From: Thuidium tamariscinum
Taxonomy: Eukaryota > Streptophyta > Bryopsida > Hypnales > Thuidiaceae
DNA length: 64,000 nt
Direction of reading: 5' to 3'
NCBI GenBank assembly: GCA_947034885.2
Contig: OX344753.2
Location: forward strand, 10,230,001 to 10,294,000
Shown here: positions 11,171-61,842 of the stretch, one piece after another
Position numbering within the stretch: position 1 is the stretch's first letter
How the letters are laid out: the number at the start of each line of letters is the position of its first letter
The notes under the pieces: generated by a model
What the model was told of the DNA's origin: nothing
Database searches by the model: none
What the model saw: only the letters and a program-made list of their open reading frames with translations
Made by a program: the position numbers and the translations under genes

Positions 11171-11974
11171 TTAACCCCTAAAAGACCAAACTATGCTTTT
11201 TGGCAACATAGTGATTTTAGGCAGTTCACTACATATGGAGTTTTTTTGTTTTTTTTTCTTTGAAATTTTTTCCAAACATGCGCCCAAGGTGTAGCTTTAA
11301 GGCCCAACAATTTTCATAAATTTTGACTACATGGTTAAAAAATTATTGCATGATATGGGATTTTCTTTGTTTGGCAGGTAGCTCGAGCAGATTAAAAAAA
11401 ATTCTTCAAAAATTAGTTTTTTTGAAAATAAAAATTTGAAATTGGTTCTTTAGATTTATATAGACATCAGAAGCTTTGACTCATGCCATTTGGATTAATG
11501 AAATGAAAGTTATGAGGAGTTTTAGTTTGTGGGTAGTTTGTAGAAAATTATAGATTATCTAGTCTAAAACAAACTTTGGAGTCCTTTATTTAATTCAATT
11601 TTTAATATTTTTGAAAAAAATTAAAAATATTGGGTGTAGATTTTTTATTACAACATTGAATTGAAGGATGAATTTAAAGAGTTACAATCATTTTGGACAT
11701 TTTTTCATACAAATGTGACCTTTTGAAGTGTAGCTGCCTAGATTTTTGGAGTGATAAAAAAAGGACTTTTGTAACTTCAAACACTAATATCTTGAAATCT
11801 ACATGGCAAAAAAATTTGAAATTTTTTCTACATGTTGTCAAACTAGTTCACTAAAAAATCCTACAATTGCATTATTTCAAAAATGTTTTTTTTCAAAAAT
11901 TTGGTAGTTGTACTAGAAATGACAGTTTTAGAGCTGTTTTAATGAAAATATAGTCAAAAACCTTTAGGGATTAA
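11171..11974. mobile_element. Probable TTAA-flanked element, diverged
   Basis: The left end reads TTAACCCCTAAAAGACC and the right end, reverse-complemented, TTAATCCCTAAAGG. The ends fit the TTAA-CCC group described elsewhere in the window, but the inner repeats are poorly matched. The interior is AT-rich and non-coding. The pairing of these two ends is an inference from their spacing and orientation. Confidence 0.4.
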
Positions 11975-12884
11975 AGCATCTACTTCACCCCTCCAGTTAT
12001 TCCAACCTCTTTAATTGAAATTTGTCCAATTTGGAAGGCATGGTCACTTGTATCGCCAACAATACAACTCACTAAATTTACTTTCAACCAATCACAAGTT
12101 CACATAACTTTCAAAAGTGACAAGTAAGATATCATTTATTACAATGACTTGCTACCGTACATGTAGGTCAGTTTCAGCATGAACATGTTGAAATATTTTA
12201 TTTTTAGCAATTCGACGGTTTGGCAAACAAATTAGAATTTTTAAATTTTCGGCAGTCTACAAGGATACTCCTAATTTTGGATTGATTCTATCCATTCATG
12301 CCTAAATGTGTTCCTTTTTCTAATTTTTCTCAAGAATAATTTTTTCAGATTTTCAGAAATAGTTGTAAATAATTTTCTAGATTTTGGCATCTTCCAAATT
12401 ATCCCGAGTTATTTACAAAACTGACCTATATCCCAATAGAATATATACTATGTGGAGGGGTTAGTGACCCCTTTCAAATATGGCTTACTTTAGGGGAGAA
12501 AGTGAAGATTAAACCTTACATAAGCTAAAACCTGATCGCTTACCATCCCAAAATTAGAGGAGAAGGGATACTTGGAGGATGCTCCGGCAGCATTGAAATC
12601 AGCCAGAGCTTTAGTTGAAATTAGCAACCCTATCCCCGAGTGTACGGTAATGACTCCAATGACGGACGTCAAAAAAAAAAAAAAAGGAGTTGAAAAGAAA
12701 AAGAAAAGAAGTTCATCAGTTTTTCTCTCTTCATTGCAGTAAAGGCTCTTCTTTATCTGTGTCCCCAAAAAAATCAGTTTATCAGCTCCTGTGCTTATTA
12801 GCTTGGCTTATAGCTTTCCCACTGAGGGGGCTTTTTTTTTAACAAATGCGGAGACCCCACTGCATTAAAAAAAACCAAGATACA
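11975..12884. other. AT-rich intergenic DNA
   Basis: No gene is seen. A minus-strand open frame at 12490-12768 is driven by a poly-A/poly-T tract and is not credible. Confidence 0.5.
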
Positions 12885-13220
12885 CATAACATTCAGTAGC
12901 TGATAGAAGGACTGCCTTTCCCTTTGTGAAGTCCCCATCACCTAATTTCATCAGACATTTCTTGAAGTTTGTAACTTTAGTTACTGAACGGTGTGGAATA
13001 TTTCACACCATTTCATCCACTGGGAGGCAGTGTGACAGATTGCTCTTGAATGTTAAGTTAATGTTTTCTTATTCTTAGTTCTTTGTCCAGCCGCTTGGCT
13101 TGGCTAGTTTTGCATAACATTCAGTAGCAGCTTGTCACACTGCCTCCTAGCGGATGAAATTAGGTGATGGGGACTTCACAAAGGGAAAGGCAGTCCCTCT
13201 ATGGGCTACTGAATGTTATG
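12885..13220. mobile_element. MITE with long inverted ends (CATAACATTCAGTAGC)
   Basis: About 68 bases at each end are inverted copies: CATAACATTCAGTAGC, then a purine-rich block, then CTGCCTTTCCCTTTGTGAAG and CATCACCTAATTTCATC. An inner pair (GAGGCAGTGTGACA and its complement) lets the stem continue. A copy of the terminal 16-mer also occurs inside, at about 13113. The related element at 22304-22472 shares both the ends and a GTGGAATATT.CAC palindrome. It is non-coding. Confidence 0.85.
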
Positions 13221-13545
13221 AAGTTAAGACCTTTGCTACTCCAATAAATTTGGTCACCATGAACAGAGGGGGCTTCGAACGTTCCCAAAATATCTACCAA
13301 GAACCTCTCTCCATTTGATTTCCAAAAAATGTAGAAAAATGAAAAGCCCGAACCTCTCTGTCTGTCAGTCAGTCAGCTGGCTTGCATTGACTATTATCAA
13401 GGCTTGCCCCACTGGCAGATTCTATTTGCTTTCCAAATAATGCGAACTCCGCACTCCGGATAGGATTCGACCAAATTAGCCAAAGTGGGGGACCGATTTC
13501 AAAACCTGGACTCCGTCACTCATCAGGCATTTGCTCAATAAGTTA

Positions 13546-14228
13546 TAAATCCTCCATCCGAAGTGGGCCCAAGTGAGCAGGTGGATTTTCTACCTCGGGG
13601 GAAAACGCAGGCAGGATTTTTTTGGAATTTGTTGCAAATATTTTCCAGTTTTTACACAAATAATTCTGAAGTAATTCAGATTTGCAAATCGGAGACTTGT
13701 CACGTAACTGCGAAACCTGATTCAAAATAAATGAGTAAAAAACAAATCTTAGCCTGCTTCAATGTAATCCACAATTCATTTTCTCACAATCAACTATCCA
13801 TTTCAGAGCCTCCTAATGGATAGGTGTAAAAACATGCACAATTTATGAACCCTCTCCTATACAGAACGTTAAATCATTCCATCAAAAGTGGGCCCAGCGG
13901 GATAAATCTCATTTTACTAGGGGTTGGCAAGGGTTTGGGGTTTATATTTGTGTTGGGTTTTTGTGGTAAGTTCAGTGTCCCCCAAACTAATTTGGGGTCT
14001 CTGATTCTGAATCTGAATTCTGGATTTGAAAAAAATTAAAAAAAATTCAGCATTTTCCCTGGGGTAAATCCAGCCTGCGGGGCCCACCTTCGATGGTATG
14101 ATTTAACACTGTGCCTCTCCTACCCCCTACCCACGGCTTGGAATAAGTTAGGGGGCTTTTTTTTAAAACTTTTACCCCGGAGAACCCAAAATTTACCGTG
14201 TTGGGCCCACCTCGGATGGCAGGATTTA
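13546..14228. mobile_element. MITE of the GTGGGCCC family, interrupted by a second copy
   Basis: The left end (TAAATCCTCCATCCGAAGTG then GGCCC) is inverted at the right end (GGGCCCACCTCGGATGGCAG then GATTTA). The homology extends about 40 bases inward. The element at 13869-14106 has the same kind of ends and lies inside, so this is a nested insertion of one family into itself or a close relative. Confidence 0.7.
13869..14106. mobile_element. MITE of the GTGGGCCC family, nested copy
   Basis: Imperfect terminal inverted repeats of about 50 bases begin TTAAATCATTCCATC on the left and end GATGGTATGATTTAA on the right. Both ends carry a GGGCCCA.C block. The outer four bases at each end are TTAA, so a TTAA target duplication is possible. 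The interior is AT-rich and non-coding. Confidence 0.75.
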
Positions 14229-14789: not shown

Positions 14790-15434
14790 TTAACCCCTAA
14801 ATGCCCAAGGCCTGTTTTGAGTGTCTTGGAATTTGCTCTAAATTGAACAAAATGCCAACATTTTGATAAGTTGTATCAATTTTTTTTGAATTGTAACCGT
14901 ACAAATTCAAACTAGACATGTTAGAGATCTCATGGGAAAAGAAAACACAACAATATCACTTACGGAGTGAAAGATTATTGAATGCTTGACCGTGAGGGTG
15001 TTAAAACTGCAAAAATCTTTCAATCCTCTTTTCACAAGTCAAATCTAAAACAATGGTGACCAGAAAAATAAGAGGTTAAAGGGCCTAATATGTATAACCC
15101 CAATCAATTTATGGTTTCTTAAAAACTACTTTGTAATTTTTTTAAATGAATTTAGAATGTGATTTTTGATCCAAGATTTAGTGTATTTGAGGCTCATTTC
15201 CAAGAGCTCTTAACACTACGGGAAGTCAAGATTGCAATGGGTACCCTTGCACAAAAACTTGTATCGAAAAATCACTATCACTCATTTTCCAGATCGGATT
15301 TTTGACACTAAAACTAAACTTCCAAAAGAACTTTCCAAAAATAGAACTACTAAAATAGCAACTTAATTAGGTTTTATTTAACTTGAAAGTTTGGCAAACA
15401 CCAAATTCTGGTGCCTTGGGCAGTTAGGGATTAA
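14790..15434 (-). mobile_element. TTAA-flanked element, family 1 (copy A)
   Basis: The ends are TTAACCCCTAAATGCCCAAG(G) on the left and (C)CTTGGGCAGTTAGGGATTAA on the right. The 645 bp body is an inverted copy of 17287-17938: it shares TTTTGAG.(G/T)(T/C)CTTGGAATTTGC, the CCAACATTTTG block and the TGATCC/GTGCAA.GGTACCC region. It has no open frame and is therefore non-autonomous. Diverged copies lie at 18785-20009 and 54187-55115. Confidence 0.85.
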
Positions 15435-15570
15435 GAACCCGATTTTAGAACCGTAAATGAACCCAAGTTCAGACCATTGTTGAAACCCCAATTTACACCT
15501 GGGTTTGAACCCAAGTTTAGACTTTAGACTTGTATTTGAACCCAATTTTAGACCTCAGTTTTAAATGAGT
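15435..15570 (+). repeat. Degenerate tandem repeat of a GAACCCAAGTTTAGACC unit
   Basis: About five units of 23-31 bp follow one another directly after copy A. Each starts with GAACCC or GAAACCCC and is followed by (A/G)(A/T)TTTA(G/C)A. No coding sense is seen. Confidence 0.7.
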
Positions 15571-17286: not shown

Positions 17287-17938
17287 TTAACCCCTAAATG
17301 CCCAAGGCACCCAAATTTTGTGTTTGCAAAACTTTGAAATTAAATAAAACCTAACTAAGTTGCTATTTTGAGAAGATTATATTTCCTAAAAAGTTCTTTT
17401 TGAAGTCTAGTTTCACGGTCAAAAATCTGATTCGGAAAATGATTGATTATGACTTTTCTATTCAAGATTTTGTGCAAGGGTACCCATTGCAATTTTGCCT
17501 TTCCGTAGCGTTGAGAGCTCTTGAAAATGAGCCTCAAATACACTAGACCTTAGAGAAAAATTCACATTCGAAATTCATTTACAAAAATTGTAGAGTAGAT
17601 TTCAAGAAGCCATAAATTGATTGGGGTTATGGATGTGGGGCCCTTTAACCTCGTATTTTTTTGGTCACCAACTTTTCAAATTTGACTTGCGAAAAGAAAA
17701 TAGAAAGACTTCACATTACTTTTGTTGTTTAACACCCTCATGGTCAAGCATTATAATCTTTCACTCTATAAGTGAAATTGTTGTATTTTATTTTCCTATG
17801 CGATTGCTAACATATCTAGTTTGAATTTGTACTAAAACAATTCAAAACAATTAATACTACATCAAAATGTTGGCATTTTGTCCAATTTAGGGCAAATTCC
17901 AAGAAGCTCAAAACAAGCCTTGGGCATTTAGGGGTTAA
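17287..17938 (+). mobile_element. TTAA-flanked element, family 1 (copy B, best preserved ends)
   Basis: The two ends are exact inverted copies: TTAACCCCTAAATGCCCAAG(G) and (C)CTTGGGCATTTAGGGGTTAA. The 652 bp interior matches copy A in reverse, and matches the diverged copies at 18785 and 54187 in the same orientation. No frame encodes a transposase. The short open frames at 17355-17543 and 17621-17824 do not persist in the other copies. Confidence 0.9.
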
Positions 17939-18784: not shown

Positions 18785-20009
18785 TTAACTTCTAAATGCA
18801 CAAAGGATGATATTGGGTTGTCAACTAGGCTTTGAGGTTAAATAAAATCTTACTAAAACTTTTTTTGGGGTATTTTTTTAATTGAATATATTTCAAAGTC
18901 TATTTTTTTGAGCATCAAAAATCCTTTTTGGGAAATTTTATATATGCTTTTCCTATTAAAGATGATGTGCAAAGGTATCCATTGCAAATTAATCTTGATT
19001 TTTTGTGTCAAAGACTTTTGGAGGTGAGCTCCAAAAACACTTGGGAGAAAATCACATTGGAAGTTCACTAAAAAGAACATTGTAGGTTAGATTTTCAAAA
19101 GCCATCAATCAATTTTAGTCATATATGTTATATCCTCAAGCTTCATATATTTTATTTCATACACTCAATTTTAGGTTTGAATGTAAAATAAGGATTGAAT
19201 GAATTTAAATCACTTCTATAGTTTTACCTCTTTAAGGACCAAGGGTAATTTAGATTTCAAAAATTGTAAAAATTTATTATAAAATACAACTTTGAAGATT
19301 AATTTAATGATGGCTCTAAATAATAGTTATTAAATGTGATCCATAGATTATAGTTTTATGATTAGATCAACTAATATATAAAGCAATATTTTTGAAGAAA
19401 TTTGAATTCAAAAATTGAAAATTCCCTCTAAAACAAATTGTAGATTGAATATTTGTGATTTTCACAAGAGTATAATCCTTGAAGTTCAAAATATTGAGTT
19501 CTAATCATAATGATTTTTGAAAGAGTTTTATCCAAATTTCTATTCAATTTGTCTTACAAGGATCATTTTTGAACCCAAAAGGTTATTTTCTAGATCGAAC
19601 CTACCATTCAAAACCTGTTGAATAATAGAAAACTTGTAAAGTAAAATCTTTATAATCTATACTGCATATAAATGTTAAGGTACTAGTAGGAAAATCTTCA
19701 ATTAAGTTTATGGTTGGAAAAATGCATCTTGGTATGTTTGGGACTTGTTTGCATTTATCCATTGTTCAAAATTGGAACACTTGGTTCTTTAGGGATTAAC
19801 ACCTGCTTGGTCAAACATTCTTTGTTTTTCACTCCTCAAGTGGTATTGTTGTATTTTTTTCCATTTGATCTATATAGTATGTCTGGCTTAAATTCATAAG
19901 GTTACAATTTTTAGAAAATTGATAAAACTTATCAAAACTTGGACTTGTTGTTTTGTTTTGAGCAAACTCCAAGAAGCTCATAAAAAGGCTTTATACATTT
20001 AAGAATTAA
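18785..20009 (+). mobile_element. Decayed family 1 TTAA element split by a nested insertion
   Basis: 18785-19130 matches the first half of copy B. Landmarks are the (C/A)TTTGA(A/G)(A/G)TTAAATAAAA.C(C/T)TA block, the GA(T/A)TTTGTGCAA-like block and the TAGA(T/G)TT..AA.AAGCCAT block. About 19800-20009 matches the second half (CTTGGTCAAACATT, TTGTTGTATTTT, CTCCAAGAAGCTCA). The roughly 650 bases between them are absent from copies A and B and contain the element at 19207. Confidence 0.75.
19207..19799 (+). mobile_element. Probable decayed copy of the 45484-46065 element, nested
   Basis: The left edge reads TTTACCTCTTTAAGGACCAAGG, close to TTAACCCTTTAAGGACTATGG at 45484. The right edge reads GGTTCTTTAGGGATTAA, close to the TCCTTAAAGGGTTAA end of that element. 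The lengths agree (about 593 and 582 bp). It sits inside the split element at 18785-20009, so insertion of one TTAA element into another is the simplest reading. Confidence 0.5.
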
Positions 20010-20704: not shown

Positions 20705-21062
20705 AATTAGAAGAGATTTGAGGGGTCAAAAAGACTACAAATTCCCGTAGTCTAAGAACGTAGGAAAGTTCAGAATTGTAGGAACTTGATGTGGCCGGGG
20801 CAATGCCATATCATTTAATTTATTTTTTTGAAAATAAAATAAAATTTTGGACTTCTTTTTACATTTCAACACCCATTTTTAATTTTAATTTCTTAAATGC
20901 CAGCTTAACCCCTCACCGCCCAAGGGGACGAAATGTGTCCCCTTTTCAGTGTATTTCAAGATACCTGGGGCGGTGAGGGGTTAATAGAAGCTGACTGTTT
21001 TGGGAGTTGTTTCGGGAACAATCCTGAAACAGCCCTTTGAAAGCCTTAGATTTGACCTAATG
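20705..21062 (+). mobile_element. CATTAGAAG-type MITE, carrying a nested TTAA element
   Basis: It aligns with 25337-25599, 48544-48808 and the reverse of 49465-49742. Shared blocks are the diverged ATTAGAAGAGATTTGAGG start, an internal TTCCCG/GGGAAC-type palindrome region, TGTGGCC....(A/T)GCCA, a long AT tract, and GGGAACAATC..GAAACAGCCCTTTGAAAGCC followed by an inverted start. The 80 bp at 20905-20984 are absent from the other copies. Confidence 0.75.
20905..20984. mobile_element. 80-bp TTAA-flanked element nested in a MITE
   Basis: The ends are 17-base perfect inverted repeats, TTAACCCCTCACCGCCC. The element interrupts the 20705-21062 MITE between TGCCAGC and TAGAAGCTGACTGTT. The uninterrupted relatives read TGCC(G/A).CCTGACA..GGCCA.CAGTT there. 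It is the smallest member of the TTAA-CCC group and the best evidence that these elements move and target TTAA. Confidence 0.85.
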
Positions 21063-22303
21063 TTTGGCTTCATCATACCAATTCAACATCAAAACACGGG
21101 TTGCCCCAATTATGATTCCCATGATTGACTGATTTCAATCCCCTCAAAATACTGCCGAAAATTGGCAAATTGAACACAAGTGGATTTCATTGATTGTCCA
21201 CCAATGACTATGTCTTGTGACTGATAGAGTAGGTAACTCATTTTTTTTATTTATAATTTTTTTCCTCTCGAAACACATGTAGGTAAGTTATTGGATACAT
21301 TGGGAGTGCCAACAACTGATGAAACTTTCTGCACTTGCCATGGAAAAATGGGTCATGGAAAATTGGGTCATGGCAAGCCCCCAATGCAGAAAGTGCCACA
21401 AAATAATCAATGAAGATGAAGGAAATCCTCCCTGGTGGGAAGGCACCGCATGCTCTTTCTGCCCTTTTTTCTGTTGCTTTTTCATTGAAAGTTCAATATG
21501 TGCAACCTCCCCACATCCAACAAGGACTCAGAATTTGTCCTCAGCTATCCTCTAACTTATCTACCCACCAGCAATGTAAGGGAGGAGGTCCATAAAGTGC
21601 CGGCCCATCTAAAAGCTGAAACTGAATTTTGGGGAGTGAAACTTCTTGAATTAGTTTTCAGTAAATTTTTCTTGAAAGACAAGGGGAATTCACATCTAAG
21701 GCAAGTTATTTCATATTTTTTGGATCTTTATGGAATTAGTTATGAAATTTTAAAGTCGAAATGGCATAGGGCCTTGAAACCACCCACCTCAATGTACATT
21801 GCTTGTACATTCTTGTAAAAATGAAAAAAGCAGCATGTACAAACAATGCACGTTTGAGAAAGTGAGCGTTTTTCAAGCTTGAGTGGTTTTTGAGCTTCCT
21901 CCCTCATCATAACTTGATAACTTAAAAAAGGTGTCTATGTCCAAAAAAAATTCATACTAACTGCCAACATCACTCTCTATGCAATACATCTCCAAAATCT
22001 AAGAAAAAAATTAATCAATAGAATTGATTAGAAAGTGTGTGCAATGTTACAATGAGGGAGCAAGAATTGGAGTTTGAGAATAAACACAAGACGAAATTCC
22101 TCGTTGCTAGAGTATATATTGGAGTTTATTTAACATCAACACCACTCCTATAACACCTTCTTCAACGGTAAAGTATTGAATAGGGACATACGCTAGGAGA
22201 TGCAGTAGTTAACCAGGCTTTATGCATCATTTAACCTTCAAGGCCTAGCAACTTTGTTACAATGGACATTTTCAATGAGTCGCACACTTTGATATATTTC
22301 TTT
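21063..22303. other. Intergenic DNA with a short GC-richer island
   Basis: 21290-21600 is GC-richer. It contains an imperfect inverted repeat (ACTTTCTGCACTTGCCATG against CATGGCAAG...TGCAGAAAGTG) and a short frame with two CxxC pairs, but there is no start context, splice support or family match. The segment 21575-21830 is repeated at 30865-31130. The rest is AT-rich and empty. Confidence 0.4.
21575..21830 (+). repeat. Dispersed repeat, copy also at 30865-31130
   Basis: Both copies begin TAAGGGAGGAGG(T/C)(C/T)CATAAAG(T/C)G. They continue with similar spacing through GCTGA, TTTTCTTGAAAGACAAGG or its counterpart, and a GAATTAGT..(A/T)GA block. The boundaries are approximate and no coding sense is seen. 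Confidence 0.45.
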
Positions 22304-22472
22304 CAATAACATTCAACAACCATCTTGGCATTGCCTTTACTTTGAGAAGAGGATGTGGAATATTCCACATCCAACAATTTGCATTTGTAGCTAATTTGAT
22401 TGGAAGGAGTAGAGCATTATTGGATGTAAAATATTCCACGCCATCACTGTGAAGCTACTGAATGTTATATTG
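22304..22472. mobile_element. Small MITE related to 12885-13220
   Basis: The ends CAATAACATTCA and TGAATGTTATATTG are inverted copies. The interior contains a perfect 22-base palindrome centred on TGGAATATTCCA, whose diverged counterpart is in the larger element at about 12990. Confidence 0.65.
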
Positions 22473-24412: not shown

Positions 24413-25336
24413 TTGTAAATGAAAAAAAAAATTGTTAATCTTGAAAGGTCCATGGGAAACTATACATATGGTCTTATATTTTACTCCTAGAATATGAGTT
24501 GTGTACCAAATATGGCAAGACATCTACAATTAGATTAACAATTCAACAAATTGGCATCTATCATTTGGATGTTATTTTGACATTAAATCTAACCTTTATT
24601 ATGCTAAAGTGCAACACCATACATTTAGAACTTGTGACCATTTCTATCCCTTTTGAAATGCAATTCAAGGAAATGTGATAATGATTCAAATTGGAAGTGC
24701 CATTTGATTGAGTTCAACATGAATGTAAAATCTTGTCACTACAATATATGTCAATCTATGCCCCCCCCCTTGGTAGTAGCACAATCAAATGCGAAATAGA
24801 TGAGACAAATCATCCGCTTGTTCATCCATCCATTTTATATTCATATTCTTTCATCCATTATCCATAATATTACCTAAAATTAATAAACACCATAAAAAAT
24901 TCAAGGACATTAAAAGGGATTTGAAGGCAACGGAAGCCCATTTCAAAGATGTTCTCCAATCCGTTTCCTATGTTGTCCAGAAATTGCACATCAACCCTGT
25001 TGGCTAAGTTTTTTGGATTTTTGAAAAAAAATTTGAAGTTTTTTTCAAAAATTCTAAAGAGTGTTAAGAAACCTAAAATTGAATTTTAAACAATCAAATT
25101 ATCATTTTTTAAAATTTAAATTTTTTTGACATGGCATTTTTTTGGCTACGTCAAATTGTTGATATACCACATTCCCAGCACATTCCCACAATTTTGGAAC
25201 TCAAAATAACTTGTGTGCTTCCAATGCCCTCAAATCTCTTCTAATGACTTTATATTCACTAAGATATTTTGGATGCTCTTATCCATTTTTTTTTACTTTT
25301 ATCTAGTACAAAATAACCAATAGGAAAACCAATAGA
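24413..25336. other. AT-rich intergenic DNA
   Basis: No gene, RNA or element is evident. Confidence 0.45.
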
Positions 25337-25599
25337 CATTAGAGGAAATCTGAGGGCATTAGAAGATTGCAGGTTCCCGGACTGCGGGAACTGAAATCCG
25401 ACATGGTCGAGAGAGTGCCACGTAATAAATTTTTTTTTGAATTTTTTTTGGGCTTTTTTTCATATTTCAGGACCCCCAATTTTTAAAATTTTTAAAATTT
25501 TTTGGGTAAATGCCGCCCTGACAATGGCCAACAGTTAGGGAACAATTTCGGAGAATAGCCCCAAAACGGCCCTTTGGAGGCTTTAGATTTCCTCTACTG
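25337..25599 (+). mobile_element. CATTAGAAG-type MITE (intact copy)
   Basis: 263 bp with ends CATTAGAGGAAATC and GATTTCCTCTACTG (inverted). Inside are a TTCCCGGACTGCGGGAA palindrome, a GTGCCACGTAAT motif, an AT tract and GGGAACAATTTCGGAGAA..GCCCC.AAACGG. It is about 80 percent or more similar to the reverse of 49465-49742. Confidence 0.85.
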
Positions 25600-26363
25600 A
25601 TTTTAGTCCCAAAACCTCAATTCCTACATCTTCTATGTCTAACAATATAAACTACTCCAAAAACCAAAAACTATTGAAATTCTCACTTAAATTGTACTCT
25701 GACTGTTTATAAGAATCAATTGTTGATTTTAGAAGCACCTTTTGCCAATACTTTGAAAATTCATGGTTTATTTGTATGGTGTCTAAATAATACATTCTAT
25801 GAAAATCTTCAATCCCTTTTTGTTGCAATGGAATTTGTCCATGTGTTTCAAAAAAAAAATCTTCAATCCTTTTTGGACTACTAATATAAAAGAACCTTAC
25901 AAAATCATTTTTCAATTAATAATGAAATCACATTGAATTGTTTAATTCTATTGGTTCTAAGTGTACTTAAATAGTAAAGCCATCCATTTTCAATCACTGT
26001 CTTGTAACCAACTTGTATAGACTGACTTATTTCCAACCCATGTTTGAATGGTTTTGTTTTTTTCCATTTCTAGATTTAAACTAATAACTTTATGACATAT
26101 GTCCTAAAATAGTCAATAAGAAAGTAGAAAGTATTGAGTGAGAAAGTGATTTTTGAAGGATCAGAATTGAAAGAGTTTAGAAATTGTGTATGTGTTTGGA
26201 GCACTTTTTGCCTTTCAAAATACATACTAAATTTAGTTCAAGGAATAAAATGATCAAAGCTCTTGCAATTCCTGTCATTTTTATCATTGCAGATTCCAAA
26301 ATATTTGCTTTGAGTTGCACTAGACCAAATCATGTCTAGGATTGTTTAGTTGATTGGTTTTGG
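25600..26363. other. AT-rich intergenic DNA upstream of the F-box gene
   Basis: No gene is seen. A minus-strand open frame at 25652-25915 is AT-driven and has no family resemblance. Confidence 0.45.
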
Positions 26364-27572: not shown

Positions 27573-28727
27573 ATGCATATAGAGCAGTTGTTAGCGAAGG
27601 AGCACGGCAGAAACTGCCGGAGAATCTCTCTCTCAATGCCGATGCCTGCGACGGACCACTTTGATAGACTGCCTGACTCGTTGCTCCTGGTGATCTTTAA
27701 CAAGCTCGCGGATATCAAGGCCCTAGGGAGGTGCTGCGCGGTGTCGAAGAGGTTTCACTCGTTGGCTCCCTTGGTGGACAACGTGGTCGTCAAGGTTGAT
27801 TGTGTGATATCGGGCGAGGACAATGGTTTGAACGCTAGGGGCAGAGGAATTATCAGTCACTTCGTACGGTTTGTCGTGGGAACCTTGGTGAAACCTCTCC
27901 AGGCTTTGCAGCACCTTTTGGGACCGAAGAAGACTATTCTCGCCGAAGTATCGCATCATTCTCCCGGGGAGGTTTTGAAGAACTTTAAGGAGATTCAGAA
28001 TTTGAGGATCGAGTTACCGGGAGGAGAGCTTGGGATTGAGGACGGTGTGTTGTTGAAATGGAGAGCTGAGTTCGGAAGCACTCTGGAGAGTTGTGTGATA
28101 CTCGGAGCTGCATCGCTTGTGAAGGTGGAAAAAGAGAAAAAAATAGTTAAACTAGAGGGAGTCCGTCCGTGGTTCTTAAACGGCAGGGAAGAAGGAACAC
28201 CGCAAGTGGTGACTGACGAGACCAGCGAAACCCCAATCGCTCCTCTGGATGAAAGTGGAACTATTCCCGAATCTTTTTACACTGATGGAGGGCTCAAGTT
28301 AAGGGTTGTTTGGACTATTAGTTCACTGATTGCTGCATCAGCGAGGCATTACCTTCTCCAGCAAATAATTTCGGATCATCCCACGCTGGAAAGCCTTGTA
28401 CTTACGGATGCAGATGGACAGGGGATGCTATGTATGAACAGAGAGCAATTGAAAGAATTTCGTGACACGCCACTGTCAGCTTCTCCGTCATCCAATAGGA
28501 CACAGGTGCCTGCTTTGAACATGAAACTTTGGTATGCACCGTACCTAGAACTTCCGGGAGGAACTGGATTGAAAGGAGCGACACTCGTGGCTATCAGGCC
28601 TAGCGAGAACTTGGTTCGCAAGGAGACCGAGAGCTGTGTATCGGGAGCGTTTGATGAACCGTTCAAGACTGCCACGAATCTGCTGGTGAAGCGACGAACT
28701 TACCTTCTGGAGATGAATTCATTCTGA
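27573..28727 (+). CDS. F-box protein of the At5g46170/At4g18380 clade
   Basis: A single-exon gene of 384 residues. The F-box lies at about 29-69 (DHFDRLPDSLLLVIFNK... then LGRC..VSKRFHSL...VDNVVV). In this family that domain binds the SKP1-like subunit of an SCF ubiquitin ligase. The remainder matches the plant clade typified by At5g46170 from memory of the family: FVVGTLVKPLQAL, HHSPGEVLKNFKEI, a GVLLKWRAEFGSTLE block, SGTIPESFYTDGGLKLRVVW, TISSLIAASARHYLLQ, an ESLVLTDADGQGMLCM block, PALNMKLWYAPYLELPGGT and the C-terminus RRTYLLEMNSF. There is no LRR or kelch domain, so the substrate-binding part is the clade's own C-terminal region and the substrate is unknown. The family has about 10 residues before the F-box, so ATG codons at 27636 or 27642 are plausible alternatives to the 27573 start. 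No introns interrupt the frame. Confidence 0.95.
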   Translation: MHIEQLLAKEHGRNCRRISLSMPMPATDHFDRLPDSLLLVIFNKLADIKALGRCCAVSKRFHSLAPLVDNVVVKVDCVISGEDNGLNARGRGIISHFVRFVVGTLVKPLQALQHLLGPKKTILAEVSHHSPGEVLKNFKEIQNLRIELPGGELGIEDGVLLKWRAEFGSTLESCVILGAASLVKVEKEKKIVKLEGVRPWFLNGREEGTPQVVTDETSETPIAPLDESGTIPESFYTDGGLKLRVVWTISSLIAASARHYLLQQIISDHPTLESLVLTDADGQGMLCMNREQLKEFRDTPLSASPSSNRTQVPALNMKLWYAPYLELPGGTGLKGATLVAIRPSENLVRKETESCVSGAFDEPFKTATNLLVKRRTYLLEMNSF

Positions 28728-31130: not shown

Positions 31131-31231
31131 GCACTATGAGATGCTTTAACGAACATGCAAGGTTCCAAAACGCAACCAGGAGGAAACTTTAACTACACAT
31201 GGGAGAAGAATGTCTCATAAGGTGGGAACAC

Positions 31232-31308
31232 CATTCCCGTCCATATGTAGTAGGGGTGCACATTTTTCAAAGAAAAATGTGTCCCCCTGCTACACATGGA
31301 TGGGAATG
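31232..31308. repeat. Short hairpin (36-base arms, 5-base loop)
   Basis: The arms CATTCCCGTCCATATGTAG... and ...CTACACATGGATGGGAATG pair along 36 bases with about five mismatches, closing on a tiny loop between the TTTTT and AAAAA runs. In RNA several of the mismatches become G-U pairs. It resembles a very small MITE or a hairpin precursor. There is no evidence of expression. Confidence 0.7.
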
Positions 31309-32615
31309 GATACATAGATGGGAGTGGGGGTTTTGTCCTTAGTTCTGTAAAAGTTTGACAAAGTCGACTCTCTTTGTTTTTTTACAATAAAATTGACACA
31401 TGTAGATGAAGTTCAAAATAAACTCAATTTGCCTCTTATTATGTCTTATGTTGAAGTGAAAATGAATATAGAAGAACTTTTAAATTGCTTTGACAATATC
31501 TACAATTGATTTAGTGACCGTTACATGCTGATTTAACAAACATGTACAATCTCTTATGCAACCTCCTACAGGGACGGTTTGAAGAAATGGGTCGCAATTA
31601 TAGCCAACTACTATAACCCTTTGAGTTTTTCAGAAGGTAGGAACACCTATAATCACCCCTTGTAGCAATGAACAAGTTCTTTAATGTTAACTGCTAAATG
31701 ATGCGTAGGCCATATTGTGGTCGATGAACAAGACAAAATCTTGCTGTATAGGACATAAATACAATTATTCATCCTCGGAATTAGGGGTGGAAAGGGAAGT
31801 TCTCTGGTGTTTTGACTTCCAAGGAGGACTGTAGAATTTTTTGGAATCAATGATTCCCATAGTATCAAAATTCATGATTTCCATGGCCACCAGCTTGTCG
31901 TTTAAAGGTTAAGTTGGTCAAAGTTTTACTATTCTTGTTACCAATTGAGAAGATTACAAAACATCCAAAGAAAGTTGTACATTTTAACTTCCTTTACCCT
32001 TAAACAAGATTGTCAATATTTATTGTCTGATGGTTGATAGAGAATCTTTCTATATAAGACAAAAGTGTAAGACAAAAGTGTAATGTTCATAGGAATGTGA
32101 CCTCTTGGGTTTTAATAAATCAATTATTAACATGGTACCTAAAGGTATAATTTCCACAATTACCTCCTTGACCTTTAAGGATTGAGATAGAGGTATTTAA
32201 AATATATAACTTAAGTACTTTAGCATATAGAAAGATGTAAGGATTAAAGTAGAGGTATGTAAAACAAATAAGTTAAACATTTTAGCCTATAGGAAGATAT
32301 AAAGAATTTGTTGAAAAATTGAGGTCCATATGCGCGAAAACAAAGATAAGAAAGAGTGAAAAAAGACTAAGAGTTTTTTTTCCCTCAAGAATGAATATTT
32401 TATACAATATGAATGTCTTATAGTTAGCTTTGTCACTTTTTCCTAATTAAGGAAGAAAAGAGATGAGTGATTGAGAAGGTAAAAATAAATAATATTTTCT
32501 AATGAATAGTGCATCCAACTATTGTCTACAATAGGTCACTTTAGAAAAACATTATATAAGGTTTTTTGGAATAGGTGCCTTTACTTTACTATGACACTTT
32601 ACTTGAAAAACATTC
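31309..32615. other. AT-rich intergenic DNA
   Basis: No gene is seen. Near 32190-32300 two diverged copies of an AAGGATT(G/A)A(G/A)(A/G)TAGAGGTAT..AAA run lie about 65 bases apart. Confidence 0.4.
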
Positions 32616-38518: not shown

Positions 38519-39246
38519 TTAACCCCTAATAGGACGGACCTATAAGCACTAGTTTCAATCCTCATTTCCCATCACTCAGTTTGTTGCCATTTCGGGACTA
38601 GATATGTATGAAAAATTTTATATTTATTTTTCAGAGTTGAAATTACATTGCTTTTGAACTTCACATAATATTTAGATTTTTTTTTTTTGAGGAAAACTGA
38701 TTTTTATGAGAATTTTGGAAGAGAAAGCGAAGAAAAATCACATCAAGTAGAAAATTATTTCAAAAAATCTGAAATTTCACCATATGAGTAAATTACAGTC
38801 ACAAACATCATGGTGTACACTTAATTTCCATGTCATTCTCTAATTAGAGTACAATGGACATTGAAAATACATCCAAAGTTCAAATTGCAAAAAAAATTCA
38901 ATATTATGAATTTTTTCAAAATTCCAATTGGAGTAGAAACTAGAGTAGATGACCTACATTTTGTTAGATGGGCTCAAGCTCAAAAAATATCATTTTTATG
39001 GAGAAATTTCAGATTTAGAGCAAGGAGCAACAACTTCCCAGAGTACACTAATATAGCAAATTTTGCCATCCATTTTTTTACTTACTACTCATTCATGTGA
39101 AGACTAAGACTAGTAAGACTACAAACTCAATTAGGTACTTTTCACTAAGCAAAAAATGGATGAAAAAATACTTTCTATCTCTTTTTAGGTCATTGTTTGG
39201 TCATCCAAATGCCACAAATTGGCGTTGTAAGCATTAAAAGGGTTAA
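38519..39246. mobile_element. Possible TTAA-flanked element
   Basis: The left end TTAACCCCTAATAGG and the right end TTAAAAGGGTTAA (inverted: TTAACCCTTTTAA) fit the TTAA-CCC group, but the inner repeats match only weakly. The 728 bp interior is AT-rich. The open frame 38861-39100 inside it is not recognisable. Confidence 0.4.
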
Positions 39247-45483: not shown

Positions 45484-46065
45484 TTAACCCTTTAAGGACT
45501 ATGGTTGATTTGGAGGGTGGCCGCAATTTCTTTACACAATTCTTGAAAAATCCCATTTTGTGATCATTCTATGAATGTAATTCTAAATCAAATTGTATGA
45601 ATTGGTTTTATAGGACAAATCCTTGAATCAAACAAAAAATGGAAGCGATCCAATGGTTCACATCTTTGTAATTAATTTTCAAAGATTAATGTGTTGCAAA
45701 TAGCCTCTGGCAATGGTGCTAAATAGGGTTTGCCACAATTGGGCATAAATTTCATTAAATGCTCTCAAAATTGATCCTAAACCTTCCAATTAGTTCTCTT
45801 ATAGATATAAGTAGTCATCTTTTACATTCATTATATATTTTTTTGCAATATTTCATATATGAAGGGCTAAGCAATTTAAGTCCGGACAAGCGTAGCTAAT
45901 GCATTTTTGCACACATTTCCTTGAAAATGGCTTTGTTAGAAGCATACAAAGACACTCTAATTGCATTGTTTTCTAAGTTTTTAGAAATGAAATGTCCTAT
46001 AATTAATAATAGACAAAAGTGCAAAAATCAACCCAGAAGTGGTCGACCAGTCCTTAAAGGGTTAA
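45484..46065. mobile_element. TTAA-flanked element, family 2
   Basis: 582 bp with 17-base perfect inverted ends, TTAACCCTTTAAGGACT and AGTCCTTAAAGGGTTAA. A further weak match (GGTTGA against GGTCGACC) follows inward. The interior is non-coding. A decayed relative is nested at 19207-19799. Confidence 0.85.
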
Positions 46066-49219: not shown

Positions 49220-49448
49220 TTAACCCTGAAGCACTCCGATGTCCATATTCTGAACGATGAACAGAGGGCTTCAAGGCACTATTTCATCCAATTAACTTCT
49301 TGTTTATCAAATGTAACACTTGAATCTAGAAAAGACAACCTTCCTCCATGACCAAATTCATTAAATTCTCGTAAATGATATATTTGTACAAAGCTATAAG
49401 CAAAAATGTGCAAAAGTTCAAAAAAGGATTGAGACACTTCAGGGTTAA
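49220..49448. mobile_element. TTAA-flanked element, family 3
   Basis: 229 bp with perfect 12-base ends, TTAACCCTGAAG and CTTCAGGGTTAA. A weaker inner match (CACTCCGAT against TGTCTCAAT) follows. The interior is non-coding. Confidence 0.75.
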
Positions 49449-49464
49449 AAAAGGAAATGCCAAA

Positions 49465-49742
49465 CATTAGAAGAAATCTTAGGCCTCCAAAGAGCCGTTT
49501 CGGGGCTGTTCTCCGAAATTGTTCCCTAACTGCTGGCCGCTGTCAGGGCGGTATTTATCCAAAAAAAATAAATAAATTGGGGTCCTGAAATATGAAAAAA
49601 ATCCCAAAAAAAAAATTCAAAAAAAAAATTAAATTACGTGGCACTCTCTCGACCACGTCGGATTTCAGTTCACGCAGTAGAAATTGCGTTCCCGCAATCC
49701 GGGAACCCATAGTCTTCTAATGCCTTCGGATTTCTTCTAATG
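49465..49742 (-). mobile_element. CATTAGAAG-type MITE, reverse copy
   Basis: 278 bp with exact inverted ends CATTAGAAGAAATC and GATTTCTTCTAATG. On the minus strand it follows 25337-25599 block by block. It has a small insertion near the TTCCCG palindrome (an extra GCAATTTCTACTGCG-like stretch that itself forms an inverted pair). It lies 16 bases after the 49220-49448 element. Confidence 0.85.
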
Positions 49743-51390
49743 TAAGAATTTGTTCCTACTATGCCTTAGAGGGACAATCTTATAAGTAGTAAAGTCAATA
49801 GAGCATTACAATCTACCAAGCCTACATTGACACATTGTAGGTGATGTGGCATGGACTTATGAGCAATGTTACAACCACTAATTTTTATAAAAGTAGTGTC
49901 TAGGTAATAGTGAACAAGTGCTCATTAAATCTTTTAAAATGAATATTTGAGGAAATTTTGGGCACTCTTTTCAAAATAAACTCTCAATGGTCTATTGACT
50001 TGTAAGAGTGGTGGTTTTAGAGTCTTAAGTGAATAGGCCGTCTGAGCTAGGACCTCATTAATACACCTTTGCATAAAACCTCAATCAAATTTCACGGGCG
50101 CTTAAGCCCTTAGCTTTATCCAAATAGAAATTCAATTGTTCAAAAGCTCCATTTTTTGTTATACAAATCAAGCATTGGTGAAAATTTCCATTTCATGTAA
50201 TTCAAGAAAAAAAAATCTAATTTATACCAAATGGCATCCACATTTTGAAGGCTTCTATTCATGTTGGGTAAGATACAATAAAAATATGTCTTAGGTGGTA
50301 AGAGCAAAGAAGAGAAAGAAGAGACTCCACCCCTAATACTAACATATCAAATATAAATGCCCAATCTCTTATGCGCTAAAAAGTGGCAGATATGTTATAT
50401 AACAACCCCACACCATGAACAGTCCCAACATTGTTAATTAACCCCCTTCTCATTCTAATTCCATTCATGTATAAAATAAGTTTGCTATATTTTAGCTAGG
50501 TGCTTGAGGAACTATGGTAGGTGCTAAAGTAAAAGCATCTAAATGGGACATTTATCCTAGATCTCTTGATCTTGAGGGTGCATATATGTAGAAGAAAATG
50601 ATGTGCATTTGTTAGGAAATGGTTTAGGAGACCAAGAAAATTAGTTTCATATTTTGTAGAACTTGTATGAATATAATATGAATTTTTGAAAACAATTGTG
50701 TAGATGCACCTATTGTGGACACTAAATTAATATCAAAGTAGCCACAAAAACAACCAAAAGCCACATACTCTAACTTTGGATCGTATATCAGTGAATGGCC
50801 ACTTTTTGGAAGATTGACAACTTCTTGGGTCCTCACTTGTCTACTTTAGAACACCACATGTATTCTTTGGGTACACTTGCATTTAGATTTAGATTCTTTT
50901 CTAAGTGTTCGTAAACAACCAGTGACCCAGTGTTCCATTTGGGGGGGCTTCTAAGGTAGACTAGCCTAATTCCATCTACAAACCATTTTTGTCACCCTAT
51001 ATTTGGCTCCATTTCCACCCATCCCACCATCCAAATCTGTCTGGAAATGAGCCAATTCTATTTAGAAATCTAACAAAATCAATGCATTTATGTCATTTAG
51101 GATAATGTGACAATAGCTAATTAGTGAATACCTAGATGTTTATAGGGAAATAAGAAGGTGGTTGTGGGTTTTTATTAGGGCGTTTATGACCCTATTCATG
51201 GGTGCTTTTGTAATTTAAGCCTGAACACTTCAAAAATTCACAGAAATTACAATTTTAATTAGAAAATTATAATTCCACTTGGGTTTAATTCATGAAACAT
51301 GCACACACATCTGGATATTGTATGTATCCCTTGGAATTGACCCCAAGATAGTCAGATTGCAAATCATGGTGGTAATAGGTTGGTCTACCT
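49743..51390. other. AT-rich intergenic DNA
   Basis: No gene is seen. Composition begins to rise after about 51400, at the cytochrome b5 promoter. Confidence 0.5.
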
Positions 51391-54186: not shown

Positions 54187-55115
54187 TAAACCCCTAAATG
54201 CTCAAGGCACCATATTTTGGTGTCAACTAAACTTTGAAGTTGTATAAAATCTTCAATATTATTTAGTTGAATACCTTAATAAGGTCTATGTGAAGCTTCA
54301 AAAATCTGATTCAAAAATCTGACCTAAAATCTGAAAAAATTGTTCTAGACTTTTCTATTGTAGATTTTGTGCAAGCATATCCACTGCAAATCTGGAGTTT
54401 TTGGTGTTATAGGCTCATGGGATCTTGAGGGAAAATCACATTGTAAATTCATTTAAAGAAATTGTAGAGTAAATTTTTGAGAAGTTGTAAATCAATTGTA
54501 GTAATGTACAAGTGTGCCTTGTGCCACTGCCACAGTCAAATCTAATTTTTGAAGGCATGAAATTCAATAACTCTCACACCATAGGTTCAAACACCATGAA
54601 ACAAAGTCTATGCATCCTTCCTTGCTAAGGGCTTTTTGATGGTATCAAGATCATGACCAAAATATAAGTAAAAGTAATTTTTTAATTTTTTAGAACCAAA
54701 AATACTCAAAAATCCATAACTTTCTTGCCAATAAGTCGGAATGCCATGAAACCAAGCCCATGCACCCCTCTTGGCTGAGAGCTTTCCAATAGTACCAAGT
54801 ATGCAATTAGGGGATACACAAGTCGAGAGATCTCAATTTGACAAACAAAACAAACTACCTATCTTAAGGTATAGATGTTATCGTATGTCCTTTAGCCTAG
54901 TATTTTCTTCATGACTTCAATGTTAGATTTGACTTGTAAAAAGAGGATTAAAACACTTCAAATCACTTTTTGAAGTTTTAACAATGTCTTGATCAAACAT
55001 TATAACCTTTCAATCTTTAAGTGATGTATTATTGTGTTTTCTTTTTTTATGTAACCTATAACATGCCTAGTATGAATTCATATGATTATAATTCTAAGTA
55101 AATTGGTAAAACTAA
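54187..55115 (+). mobile_element. Diverged family 1 TTAA element with an internal insertion
   Basis: It starts TAAACCCCTAAATGCTCAAGG and follows copy B through TTTTGTGCAAGCATATCCACTGCAA and the TTGTAGAGTAAATTT block to about 54510. It resumes near 54880 (TTCAA.GTTAGATTTGACTTG, TTGATCAAACATTATAACCTTTCA). About 360 bases in between are extra. They contain two similar units with a CATG.AAC.AAG.C.ATGCA.CC core and GGCTTTTTGATGGTAT or GAGCTTTCCAATAGTAC. The right terminus is not preserved. Confidence 0.7.
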
Positions 55116-56415
55116 TTAGATTTTCATTTGCTTATGAAGTCAGCCAAATATAATTGAAGATAAAGCATTTGTTAATTATTTATATGTCATTGTTACTAAT
55201 TGGTGAAGGAAAAACAAATGAAGTTTGCAACATGGTTTAACTCTGTAAGGATTGAGGCACATGTCAAGCAAAAATTGTCAAAAGAAGTAACACTTTCAGG
55301 GCCATGAGAAAAAAATTAAAAAATTAAAAAAAATCAATCTTACAAATTTATACTAGAATACTGTGGAAATGTACAAAACAAAATTTAGAAACTTTAATTA
55401 TAGAGATTGAAAGATTATAACACTTGAAGTTAGAAGAAATAGCTTTTTTCCAAACCTTGCCTAATGGGGTCAACAAACTTTAACTCTTGGAGTGAGATTT
55501 TTGCACTACACCAATACATTGTTTTTTTTTGGATAGTTGCATCCTATATCATGCTAGTTATATACTTTACTAAAGTCAGATTTTAGAAGTAAAAAGTATT
55601 TTGTATATATTGACCAAACTATCCAAAAATTTGAGAGCAATATAACTTTTGATTTGGGCCTTTGATTTGGAAAAGAACTACATTCCTATAAAGGAGGTAC
55701 AAGTTCACACCTTTTATCAAAACTTCTTGAACATCTACCAAAAATTAACTTTATACACAACTACATAAGATTTCTTATATACATTACATTCTCACTAGGT
55801 CCTTTAGGCTCAATGAAGGAGTTTATAGTTCATAGAGTTTTGTTGACTGTAACTTAGCCAAATTTGATAATTGACTTTAAACTACAATAGAAATTCAACT
55901 TATTTTTGTTTTGTGACTTGCCATACTTGGTATGATAAACTTGAACTTGAACTCATCATGATATGATAGAAAGGTATTGTTGTCAGTTTTCCAATGGCTT
56001 ACTAATTTGCATAAAATTGTTCATGGTAGGATTCTGCTTACAAATTGAGATATTACATTCTAAATATTAACACGATTTAGATTATTTAGGATACAAGATA
56101 ATATTCCTTTAAATGTTTCTCCATTATTCATACAATAATATACAATGTGTGAAGGAATTATTTAAACCATTTGTATTGATAGAAAAATTACTAATTCTAA
56201 TAATTGTCTTGGACCAATTGTCTTGTGTTGAGTTCCTTGGCACATGAAAGTCTATAGATGTTGAAACTACTTAATAAAAAAGTAAGATTATTTTTGACAT
56301 CATAGAATTTTTTTGATAAATTGGAGTTTGTACTAAAATTTAACATTAATCAATTGAGTTTTTGAACTAGCTATCTAAGGAATTGGAATTTTTTTTAAAT
56401 ATTAAATAGAAATAA
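55116..56415. other. AT-rich intergenic DNA
   Basis: No gene, RNA or clear element is seen. Confidence 0.45.
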
Positions 56416-58913: not shown

Positions 58914-59048
58914 TACTACAAGAAAATGGGGGTATAAATGACTTCTCCATAATGACTACACCAACAACAATGATTGCAAAACAGTCCTTTTATAGTCATT
59001 TTGCAGTCATTGTGAACAAGTCATTTATACCCCCATTTTCTTGTAGTG
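58914..59048. mobile_element. CACTA-type MITE with perfect ends and an ATG target duplication
   Basis: 135 bp. The right end reads AAAATGACTACAAGAAAA-type sequence in reverse, i.e. TTTTCTTGTAGTG, the inverse of CACTACAAGAAAA, the known terminus of plant CACTA (En/Spm) elements. The left end is TACTACAAGAAAATGGGGGT, differing only in the first base. The inverted ends match for about 30 bases (to AAATGACTT). ATG lies immediately outside both ends (58911-58913 and 59049-59051), the 3-bp duplication expected for CACTA elements. The high end-to-end match suggests recent insertion. Confidence 0.92.
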
Positions 59049-61499
59049 ATGATCTCTATGGTTAGGTGGTTTGAACTCTTGTGAAATGATTTGTCTATTA
59101 AGTATATTTTACATTTGCATTTGGAGTCCATTGTGATTTAATGTTATAAACTATTGGAGGGTTGTAACAAATGAGCAATTTTTTTGATCTATTGTACATT
59201 CATTCTTATTGATTCAATACCATGAATTGTAAGAAACATGCACTAAATTTCTATGGTAGAAAATTGTGTATCTTACAATGTGTGTGTTTGCATATACTTA
59301 TTTGAATTGTTTTGAAATATTTTGCCCTTTGGCATTAGATTATAACATATACTAAACTATGTACTAATAGCTAAATATAGTTTTAATGTTCAACAATTAA
59401 AATCCTAACTGAAATCTAAAATATATGTACAATGAGCTGAAATTTTATTGGATTAAATGTGATTATGTAGAATGTGTAATAAATTTTTTTTTCTTGATAA
59501 TAATATATATATTTTCATGAAACTTTAAAGAAATATAAGAACTTATTATAAAAATGTGCCTAATACATAGATAAATTATTCAAGATAATTTTAATCATAA
59601 TTAATTATTATATATTTTTTAATTTTAAGATATTCCTTATAAATAGGTTTTAATTTGTTTCTTTAATATTGCTTGCTTGCAGTAACAAATCATTTTGAAT
59701 ACGTTTAGTTTAAAATTTGCAAACAAATAACATAGCATATTAGCATTACTAATACAATGAGGTTTATCTTTAGTATTCTATTTTTAATTATTTTATTTTA
59801 AAATACAATATACAGTAGTGCTTGTCTACATCAATTTTTATAAATTTCATAGTCAAATTCTCAATGTAACCATTGGTAAATAATCAACCATTAGAAATAT
59901 ATAAGAAAAAAATAGAAGTCTTTTATCTCATAAAATTGATAAGAGTTATAGAACAAGTGATGCAATTAAAAGAAGAGATGATGCCAATGATAGAATGGAT
60001 AATACAAGTGGTAAAATAGATCATGGAGGTATTATAGCAAATGATGCAAGTATTAAAATAAATGATGCAACAAATGATGGAGGTAGAATGGAAGACTAAT
60101 ATAGCAAATTTCATAAAATTGGCCGTATTTCAAATGCCATTTTTAGACTAAGTGGTCTGAACTGAAAAATTGACATCTAGAACTAGTATAGATTTTCAAA
60201 CATCTAGGACATATCTTGATTTTCAAAATCAAAGACAAATTTAGATTTCAGACCACACAGTCTAAAACATCTTGGATGAGTATAAATTTTAGACATTTAC
60301 AACATATAGAGATTTCAAAAATCTATGGTAGATTTAGATTTCAAACCATAGATTTTAACAAAATTTGCCATCACTATAATATTTCAATTTGTCTTATCAC
60401 TATCTAGGAAATGGTATTAGTATTTTAGTGGCTTTTTCCATTTTGACTACTTCCTATTTCAACAACATCCATTTTCAAGGAGTTGGTCAATTTCTACTAT
60501 GTTCAAGAATTCCATCAATGATACTCTTACAAGTATTCCTATACCTCTTGCTAATTCCCCTTCTTCTCTTTCAAACAATGACAAAGACAATAATTGTAGA
60601 TAAGCTTGTTTATGTTTCACTAATAAAGAGTCATTTTATAGTTGTTCATATTCAATAGTTCATACCAACAACTATACTTCTACTAATTCTTCTATTATAG
60701 ATAACTTTACTTCTCCAACCCAATCCCCTTGTAGTGATTCTCAAACTCAATCTTTAAATGATTCTTTTCCTCCACCTATTCCTCTAGTTTTACAATAATA
60801 TTCCTCATCAAAATAATTCTTGATAATTTATTTATTTTTTAATTAATTTCCTTTCCAATTAGTTTCCTAAGATATTAATAGAATAGGAAGGTTAATAATT
60901 TTTTTTGAAAGAGCATGGGAAAATTGAACTATGCATGTATATGAAAATATGAATCTTTTTATTCACTAATTTGTATTATGATTCCATCATTAATTTAAAA
61001 AATACTAATTTAGTAGTACAAAGTTAGATTTATTGCAAATTACTTTTCAAAGTAATGTTATATTGAAATAAATATTTTTATTTGCAATCTAGTGAAAAAA
61101 AATCCCATCAAATTAAGGTTCTGAGGGTTCAAGCTTTGCTTCAATATTATATCTATGGTAATGTATTTTCAACTTATAAACAACACATCACATATTTTTT
61201 GCACTATTTCAATAGTAAAAGAATATTATGACTTTGTTAATCTTTCAATGTAAGCATTGTGTAGTTTAAAAGCTTTTAGTATACTTGCATTAATCAAATT
61301 TTAAAGATTTATGGCCAATATATTTCAATCAATTATTATATGAAGGAAAATAGATAAAAGATTAAAATCTTTTAAAATTCAAGAACTCTAATTTAATATG
61401 ATTTATTGACATTGAAGACTAGATGTTCAATTATAGATGATATAGATTAAAAAAATTTAAAATTTGACCTCACATTCATTGATTTTGTCTATTAAAAGA
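59049..61499. other. AT-rich intergenic DNA with degenerate simple repeats
   Basis: No gene is seen. 60180-60360 has recurring AGATTT(C/T)(C/A)A(A/G)AC-type runs. A Ser/Thr/Pro-rich frame with one in-frame stop runs from about 60500 to 60800 and could be a decayed coding remnant, but I cannot support a family. Confidence 0.4.
59945..60095 (+). repeat. Degenerate tandem repeat of a (A)AATGATGCAA/GGTA(G)AAT unit
   Basis: About eight loosely spaced copies of AA(G/A)TGATG(C/G)(A/C)A alternate with (G/T)(G/A)TA(A/G)AAT(A/G)GA in a purine-rich stretch. No coding sense is expected. Confidence 0.5.
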
Positions 61500-61842
61500 T
61501 TAATCCCTAAAAGACATTTTGTGCCCTTCAAGCCTTTTATACAAAGGATAATAGGAATTATAAAACTATTGTAGATGTCTTTTCAAAAATTGTGGAATCT
61601 TTCTCCTCCCCACAAACATCAAATACAATTTTCCTTTTGTGAGGATATGATAGTGTTATTGGTTGTAGGTTTACACAAAATAAGTTTGTTGAAGGTGCTT
61701 GAACTAATACCTTTGAAGAGAAAGTGGATTTGTTATCAAATGTGGTTTTTTCACTAATTTGATTCTCCTATTTGCCCAATCTGAAATGACTGGCAAATCT
61801 CTCAAGTTGCCTCCACAAATGAAAATGTCCTTTCAGGATTAA
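61500..61842. mobile_element. Probable TTAA-flanked element
   Basis: The left end TTAATCCCTAAAAGACATTT and the inverted right end TTAATCCTGAAAGGACATTT are similar along 20 bases. It is 343 bp and non-coding. It differs from the main group by T for C in the first position after TTAA. Confidence 0.6.

Follow-up and report, generated by a model that had tools for sequence, protein, structure and literature searches.

Which transposon superfamily produced the short TTAA-ended elements scattered through this stretch of moss DNA, and does the same genome carry a transposase that could have moved them? The stretch, called the window below, comprises 64,000 nucleotides (C5:10230001-10294000) of a 363 Mb moss genome (G000, 19 contigs), on which the genome-wide searches were run; a 264 kb set was formed from the window and the next 200 kb. 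It is nuclear moss DNA, and an F-box protein encoded in it matches a Physcomitrium patens protein with 89% identity across 89% of its length (the best match among those without a name is at 98%). A first-pass annotation of the window had listed 11 element starts and had read the elements as piggyBac-like miniature inverted-repeat transposable elements (MITEs). The comparisons described here indicate that they are very probably non-autonomous MITEs of the piggyBac superfamily in a moss. The boundaries of these MITEs are TTAA or, in older copies, tetramers that differ from it by one base.

The TTAA-ended elements turned out to be real. An exact TTAA stands at 9 of the 11 listed starts, and a right end at an exact TTAA was found for 10 of the 11 listed elements (F, A1, A2, A3, B1, C, G, H, D and K in Table 1). 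Two entries of the list did not stand as given. Position 19207 was rejected as an element end, the true left end being the TTAC at 19224; the start at 54187 reads TAAACCCC, with one change that turned TTAA into TAAA, and no right end was found for it. The inner repeat is weak in A3 and G, both of which rest on homology and TTAAYCC ends. Beyond the list, we found two elements of the same kind, E1 and E2, the latter having the TTAA at 11171-11174 in common with F, and 31687-31912 (M) is probably a further one. The first-pass annotation had described the element bodies as unrelated. There are indeed several families; homology comparison places A1, A2, A3 and the element at 54187 in one of them.

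Family A has an 18 bp terminal inverted repeat, CCCCTAAATGCCCAAGGC, and other families start with CCCC, CCCT or TCCC. This agrees with the piggyBac pattern of 12-19 bp terminal inverted repeats starting with CC[C/T]T (PMC2872659). The family A consensus contains no long open frame. Its 21-base end TTAACCCCTAAATGCCCAAGG has 781 exact matches in the genome, and the reversed control has 0; scans of IMG/VR with two exact end motifs gave no match. Relatives of 13 seed elements cover 10.7% of the 264 kb and 14.3% of the window, and several families (A, D, N3) have further copies within the 264 kb that align end to end. The end pattern TTAAYCCYTWAA, which was drawn from the same window data, occurs exactly 10 times in the window, compared to a mean of 0.37 in 30 Markov-1 sequences. 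Among 391 inverted-repeat pairs of the 264 kb with [CT]CC ends and at least 10 of 12 bases matching, TTAA/TTAA is the commonest flank pair (8, against about 0.02 expected from the TTAA frequency). The adjacent 200 kb also hold inverted-repeat elements of other kinds. Two of them, 95 bp long, adjoin TTAA (C5:10386230-10386324 and C5:10399368-10399462); their first 16 bases match perfectly and start AATGTCACAAGG, which makes them a second TTAA-flanked class without CCC. Inverted-repeat pairs of 174-178 bp start with TGTGACAAG.

It turned out that the genome outside the window carries piggyBac transposases. The first look with PF13843 (DDE_Tnp_1_7) gave 657 genome candidates; the 116 that were scored all exceeded the cut-off (E 5.7e-80 to 1.4e-70), many of them without a stop, and PF13843 was found in 0 of 14 control genomes. 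One element, PB1, read from L068, is 5,096 bp long, has the ends TTAACCCCTAAACGCCGG and TTAACCCTGAAACGCCGG, and contains an open frame of 1,023 aa that includes the PF13843 domain. PB1 has 11 full-length copies with 11 different flank pairs and TTAA on both sides in 11/11. Segmental duplication was rejected as the source of these copies because the flanks differ. Over the first 713 bp, the printed identity is 100% in all 11 (nine at 1287 bits, two at 1282). The second element, PB2 (6,320 bp, 885-aa open frame), has the ends TTAACCCCTAAGCGCTC and TTAACCCCTAAACGCCCGAGG, read from one copy. Both begin with TTAACCC and are flanked by TTAA, so that the genome holds DDE_Tnp_1_7 elements whose own ends are TTAACCC...GGGTTAA, as is expected of piggyBac and as the first-pass annotation had suggested looking for. 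It had also placed no transposase in the window. In agreement with this, tblastn of PB1 and PB2 against the 264 kb, with the six frames left outside a Pfam scan, gave no match at 1e-3 and recovered the F-box control.

Among solved structures, PB1 matches piggyBat (E 3.4e-27) and moth piggyBac (1.1e-22). Its D676, D781 and D897 are invariant in an alignment of six proteins, and we take them to be the catalytic triad from their sequence contexts TVDE, DNFFTS and GVDxADQ. These three aspartates are consistent with the DDD triad of piggyBac, and a Cys/His-rich C-terminal tail is visible in the moss transposases. Apparently, the genome holds intact, recently copied piggyBac elements. A protein search gave 53 matches for PB1 and 71 for PB2, the closest of them (up to 68%) being metagenome or read-archive proteins without a name. 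Those with a name are from animals and none is named as a plant's, in a search that reaches only proteins sharing short words; unannotated moss transposons would be missing from the protein set searched. A tree of 54 rows, rooted at its midpoint and made without one fish row, places PB1 and PB2 among unnamed proteins in a 15-row clade (support 100/100).

To assess the target site, we fetched 39 family A copies, which are all the long genome matches (the window's own and one 37-base match were left out) and the best-scoring of 5,045 first-look candidates. An exact TTAA is present at 32/39 left ends, at 34/39 right ends and at both ends in 29/39, and the bases outside it are unremarkable. Six of the copies lie in shared flanks (L009, L010, L011, L015; L021, L022), so the 39 are not independent events. 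Empty sites, the check proposed in the first-pass annotation, were sought for 60 insertions, whose two flanks were joined across a single TTAA and compared with DNA from this genome. An empty site spanning the junction was found for 10 of the 60, with an exact single TTAA in at least one match for five (B1, N2 and the A copies L033, L046 and L047); the N2 site, in L020, is 98.8% identical over 85 bp. At the place of the B1 insertion, 45 distinct unfilled A places have an exact TTAA in 38 cases and a one-base variant in 7. The single TTAA at related empty sites indicates that the duplicated target is TTAA. As judged from these comparisons, the duplication appears to be TTAA, or formally TA inside an obligatory TTAA, as in the piggyBac superfamily, and the 3-bp TTA or TAA duplication of PIF/Harbinger was not found.

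MITEs of the PIF/Harbinger (Tourist-like) type are common in plants, and TTAA contains both of their duplicated triplets, TTA and TAA. A Harbinger element with CCCCTAAATGCCC ends would speak for such an origin. However, both outer bases are kept on both sides, single-TTAA empty sites contradict a triplet, and it is DDE_Tnp_1_7 elements that are present with the same kind of ends, no search having been aimed at Harbinger transposases. We therefore consider PIF/Harbinger very improbable. We give about as little credit to Kolobok or Sola3 MITEs; Sola3 uses TTAA, and a transposase of either group inside an element with TTAACCCC ends would support this source. Kolobok, which is found in some algae, duplicates TTAA, but its termini are 5'-RR...YY-3' (PMC9587614), whereas the moss ends start with CC. 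Here too, the genome contains piggyBac elements with ends of this kind, in searches that did not extend to Kolobok and Sola3 transposases. Still less probable are Tc1/mariner elements that duplicate TA with a strong preference for TTAA. A TTAA duplication and TA inside an invariable TTAA are inseparable by sequence, and Physcomitrella is known to have Tc1-like elements whose transposases are expressed (PMC4054914); yet those moss elements, PpTc1/2, end in CAGT...ACTG (PMC4054914), which together with a TA duplication was not found here, and plain TA targeting would not keep the outer T and A. TTAA and the inner repeat are conserved to about the same degree, but it is likewise extremely doubtful that TTAA forms the outside of one longer inverted repeat without target duplication, since empty sites have one TTAA and filled sites two, and two adjacent elements have one TTAA in common at 11171-11174. 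The piggyBac reading of the first-pass annotation is supported by the single-TTAA empty sites and by the DDE_Tnp_1_7 elements with TTAACCC...GGGTTAA ends, and none of the outcomes that it had named as refuting (TTA or TAA duplications at empty sites, TTAA within a longer unrelated repeat, copies whose ends do not coincide with TTAA) was seen.

We also compared the MITE ends with those of the transposase-bearing elements. Of the 17 inner bases of the family A end, 15 are the same as in the PB2 right end, and the other two differ by CpG transitions, which could be due to deamination. The PB2 end TTAACCCCTAAACGCCCGAGG has 17 exact genome matches, PB2's own included, and its reversed control has 0. 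Seven of the 17 lie 1.3-1.8 kb, and two about 5.1 kb, downstream of a listed PF13843 match in the right orientation. Among 25 other, weaker matches to the PB1 left end, eight lie 2.4-2.8 kb upstream of listed PF13843 matches. The 20 of these 25 that were fetched all begin with TTAA, which is expected because the query itself starts at TTAA. A family G copy in the adjacent 200 kb has one end that is 80% identical to the PB1 left end over 45 bp (E 0.001). Judging from these ends, family A probably fits the PB2 lineage best and family G probably fits PB1 in part, and several transposase lineages probably serve different MITE families. Mobilisation by one transposase, as put forward in the first-pass annotation, is too simple, as at least two transposase lineages are present, and their inner ends differ. 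A piggyBac transposase from a PB-type element would bind the end repeat of a MITE, and its cysteine-rich tail would bind a palindrome whose centre lies 25 bp inside one end. The MITE would be excised via TTAA hairpins and then inserted at another TTAA. Whatever DNA lies between two compatible ends could be moved in this way, which would explain the common ends with differing bodies.

Of 18 families, with PB1 and PB2 included, 13 have such a palindrome at exactly one end, 0 at both and 5 at neither; it was scored where 5 or more of 6 positions are complementary about a centre at bp 24-26 after TTAA. The 13 palindrome-bearing ends compare with 3.2 of 36 expected, and the post hoc P of 7.5e-6 is too small because largely the same data had served to choose the centre and some of the families (A/N1, C/C2, E1/E2) are relatives of each other. 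A blind palindrome search over whole ends was near null (4/35 at the 95% level). The phased motif CCA-N5-TGG (bp 20-22 and 28-30), chosen after the ends had been seen, occurs in 8 of 78 TTAAYCCY ends, some of these 8 already used, and in 21 of 5,111 C-rich sites without TTAA (Fisher 6e-9); its main peak is at the exact phase, and a smaller peak (4) lies eight bases out. In moth piggyBac, the palindrome bound by a dimer of the cysteine-rich domain spans bp 17-33; its centre is near bp 25, as is that of a groove change, and the structure has this dimer on only one end (PMC7351741). The moss palindromes are likewise centred at bp 25 of one end. The moth passages were consulted after the moss result, the moth ends being known beforehand. 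Unlike in Trichoplusia ni piggyBac, no common displaced palindrome was found at the opposite end in the 18 families. Thus, the bp-25 palindrome may be taken as a good lead, not proof. We consider the chances evenly balanced that this moss harbours a plant-resident piggyBac lineage with present or very recent activity, as suggested by the near-identical 5.1-kb copies and the many MITE families under one end code (TTAA, C-rich repeat, bp-25 palindrome on one end) shared with moth piggyBac.

Several observations weigh against assigning the elements to piggyBac. No movement of them was observed. Sequence does not distinguish a TTAA duplication from the duplication of TA by an element that invariably chooses TTAA. 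In five of the 10 empty-site cases, only a changed tetramer is present (E1 TCAA; N1 TTTA/TTCA; A_L037 CTAA; A_114949 TCAA/TCTA; C CTGA/GTGA), and the matches for C are only 68-70% identical. As to the excess of TTAA ends itself, the generic count of TTAA-bounded inverted repeats is not clearly above that of other palindromic tetramers (per pair, TTAA 9.9e-4, AGCT 1.5e-3, CATG 9.3e-4), with a filter that dropped low-complexity and AT-rich ends and missed A2 and C; the signal is therefore the C-rich end plus TTAA, not TTAA alone. With 116 of the 657 candidates scored, 8 of the 17 PB2-type ends and 17 of the 25 PB1-type left ends have no listed transposase match nearby. We found no transposase-bearing element with exactly family A's end, and the facing family A ends at C1:28648277-28651170 (2.9 kb) enclose no transposase in the 1.1 kb read. 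Pfam gave no C-terminal zinc-finger model for PB1. The generic palindrome score on 23 fresh ends was 3/23, compared to 30/253 in controls (P 0.54).

The piggyBac elements are known mainly from animals and are a standard TTAA-targeting gene tool; the ends of moth piggyBac start with CCC. A Physcomitrella paper reportedly mentions piggyBac in gene targeting. The T. ni system (PDB 6x67/6x68; PMC7351741) and the moss system both have the TTAA target and the putative catalytic DDD domain, but the moss open frames are longer (1,023 and 885 aa, compared to 594 aa) and the host is a land plant. The piggyBat of Myotis lucifugus (PDB 9c0f) is the best solved-structure match of PB1, although the similarity is remote and the host different. 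The Acropora CMITE families (PMC2872659) likewise are MITEs of several families that occur together with piggyBac elements in one genome, have CC[C/T]T ends and duplicate TTAA. Acropora, however, is an animal, and its family I has ends identical to those of one autonomous element, which was not found for moss family A. Among plants, a fern repeat table gives 1,230 PiggyBac elements (PMC6890710), feather grass has one (PMC8319324), and a review counts PiggyBac among the plant superfamilies (PMC10794571). A Physcomitrium transposable-element paper has passages on DNA transposons (PMC7466625), and in the available text of a moss genome paper (PMC10619864) only the word "piggybacking" was found. 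The matches listed in the open-access literature contain no report of natural piggyBac in a moss. The kind of element is already known, and the news is its host and apparent recent activity; in this limited open-access search, no earlier account of a land plant with a rich and recently active piggyBac system was found. If true, this would extend the piggyBac superfamily to land plants as a living system and offer a possible source of a plant-adapted footprint-free transposase. The moss ends would provide a natural comparison for the unsolved need of asymmetric piggyBac ends.

Table 1. Elements and host gene mapped in the window (window positions)
Feature	Position	Strand	Basis or remark
B2, degraded family B element interrupted by E1	8325..9708 (left boundary approximate)		homology to B1; right end TTAACCTTTTGAGG at 9708
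E1, 814 bp, nested in B2 (older)	8648..9461		TTAA at both ends; related empty site TCAA in B1
E2, inverted relative of E1	10092..11174		left TTAA changed to TAAA
F, 804 bp	11171..11974		ends CCCCTAAAAGACC / TCCCTAAAGG; relatives in adjacent 200 kb
A1, 645 bp	14790..15434	-	90% to family A consensus
A2, 652 bp	17287..17938	+	terminal repeat CCCCTAAATGCCCAAGGC
A3, split by nested B1	18785..20009	+	homology and TTAAYCC ends
B1, nested in A3	19224..19799		left TTAA mutated to TTAC; unfilled A copies with one TTAA
C, 80 bp, with palindrome	20905..20984		ends CCCCTCACCGCCC
Host F-box gene, places genome among mosses	27573..28727	+	protein comparison
M, probable element	31687..31912		related to 230-bp family N2
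G, 728 bp	38519..39246		family copy in adjacent 200 kb resembles left end of autonomous PB1
H, 582 bp	45484..46065		ends CCCTTTAAGGACT
D, 229 bp	49220..49448		second copy in adjacent 200 kb, end-to-end alignment, 89%
A4, degraded family A copy, right end lost	54187..55116	+	homology
K, 343 bp	61500..61842		TTAA at both ends

Repeats of other kinds accompany these elements. A dispersed repeat (25336-25602 and 49462-49743, 80% identity) lies beside element D, and part of it is also found beside element C, at 21010-21068. A near-perfect inverted repeat outside the TTAA class occupies 12885-13220, with 68-nt arms that are 96% complementary and nested arms at 13003-13167. Compact inverted repeats without TTAACCC ends are present at 58915-59047 and 31231-31309. 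Another repeat (1530-1948 and 5274-5745) has 72% identity; its second copy lies in a long membrane-protein-like frame, 4432-6075, for which Pfam gave no match. The open frame at L056:6325-7071 looks hAT-like by eye.

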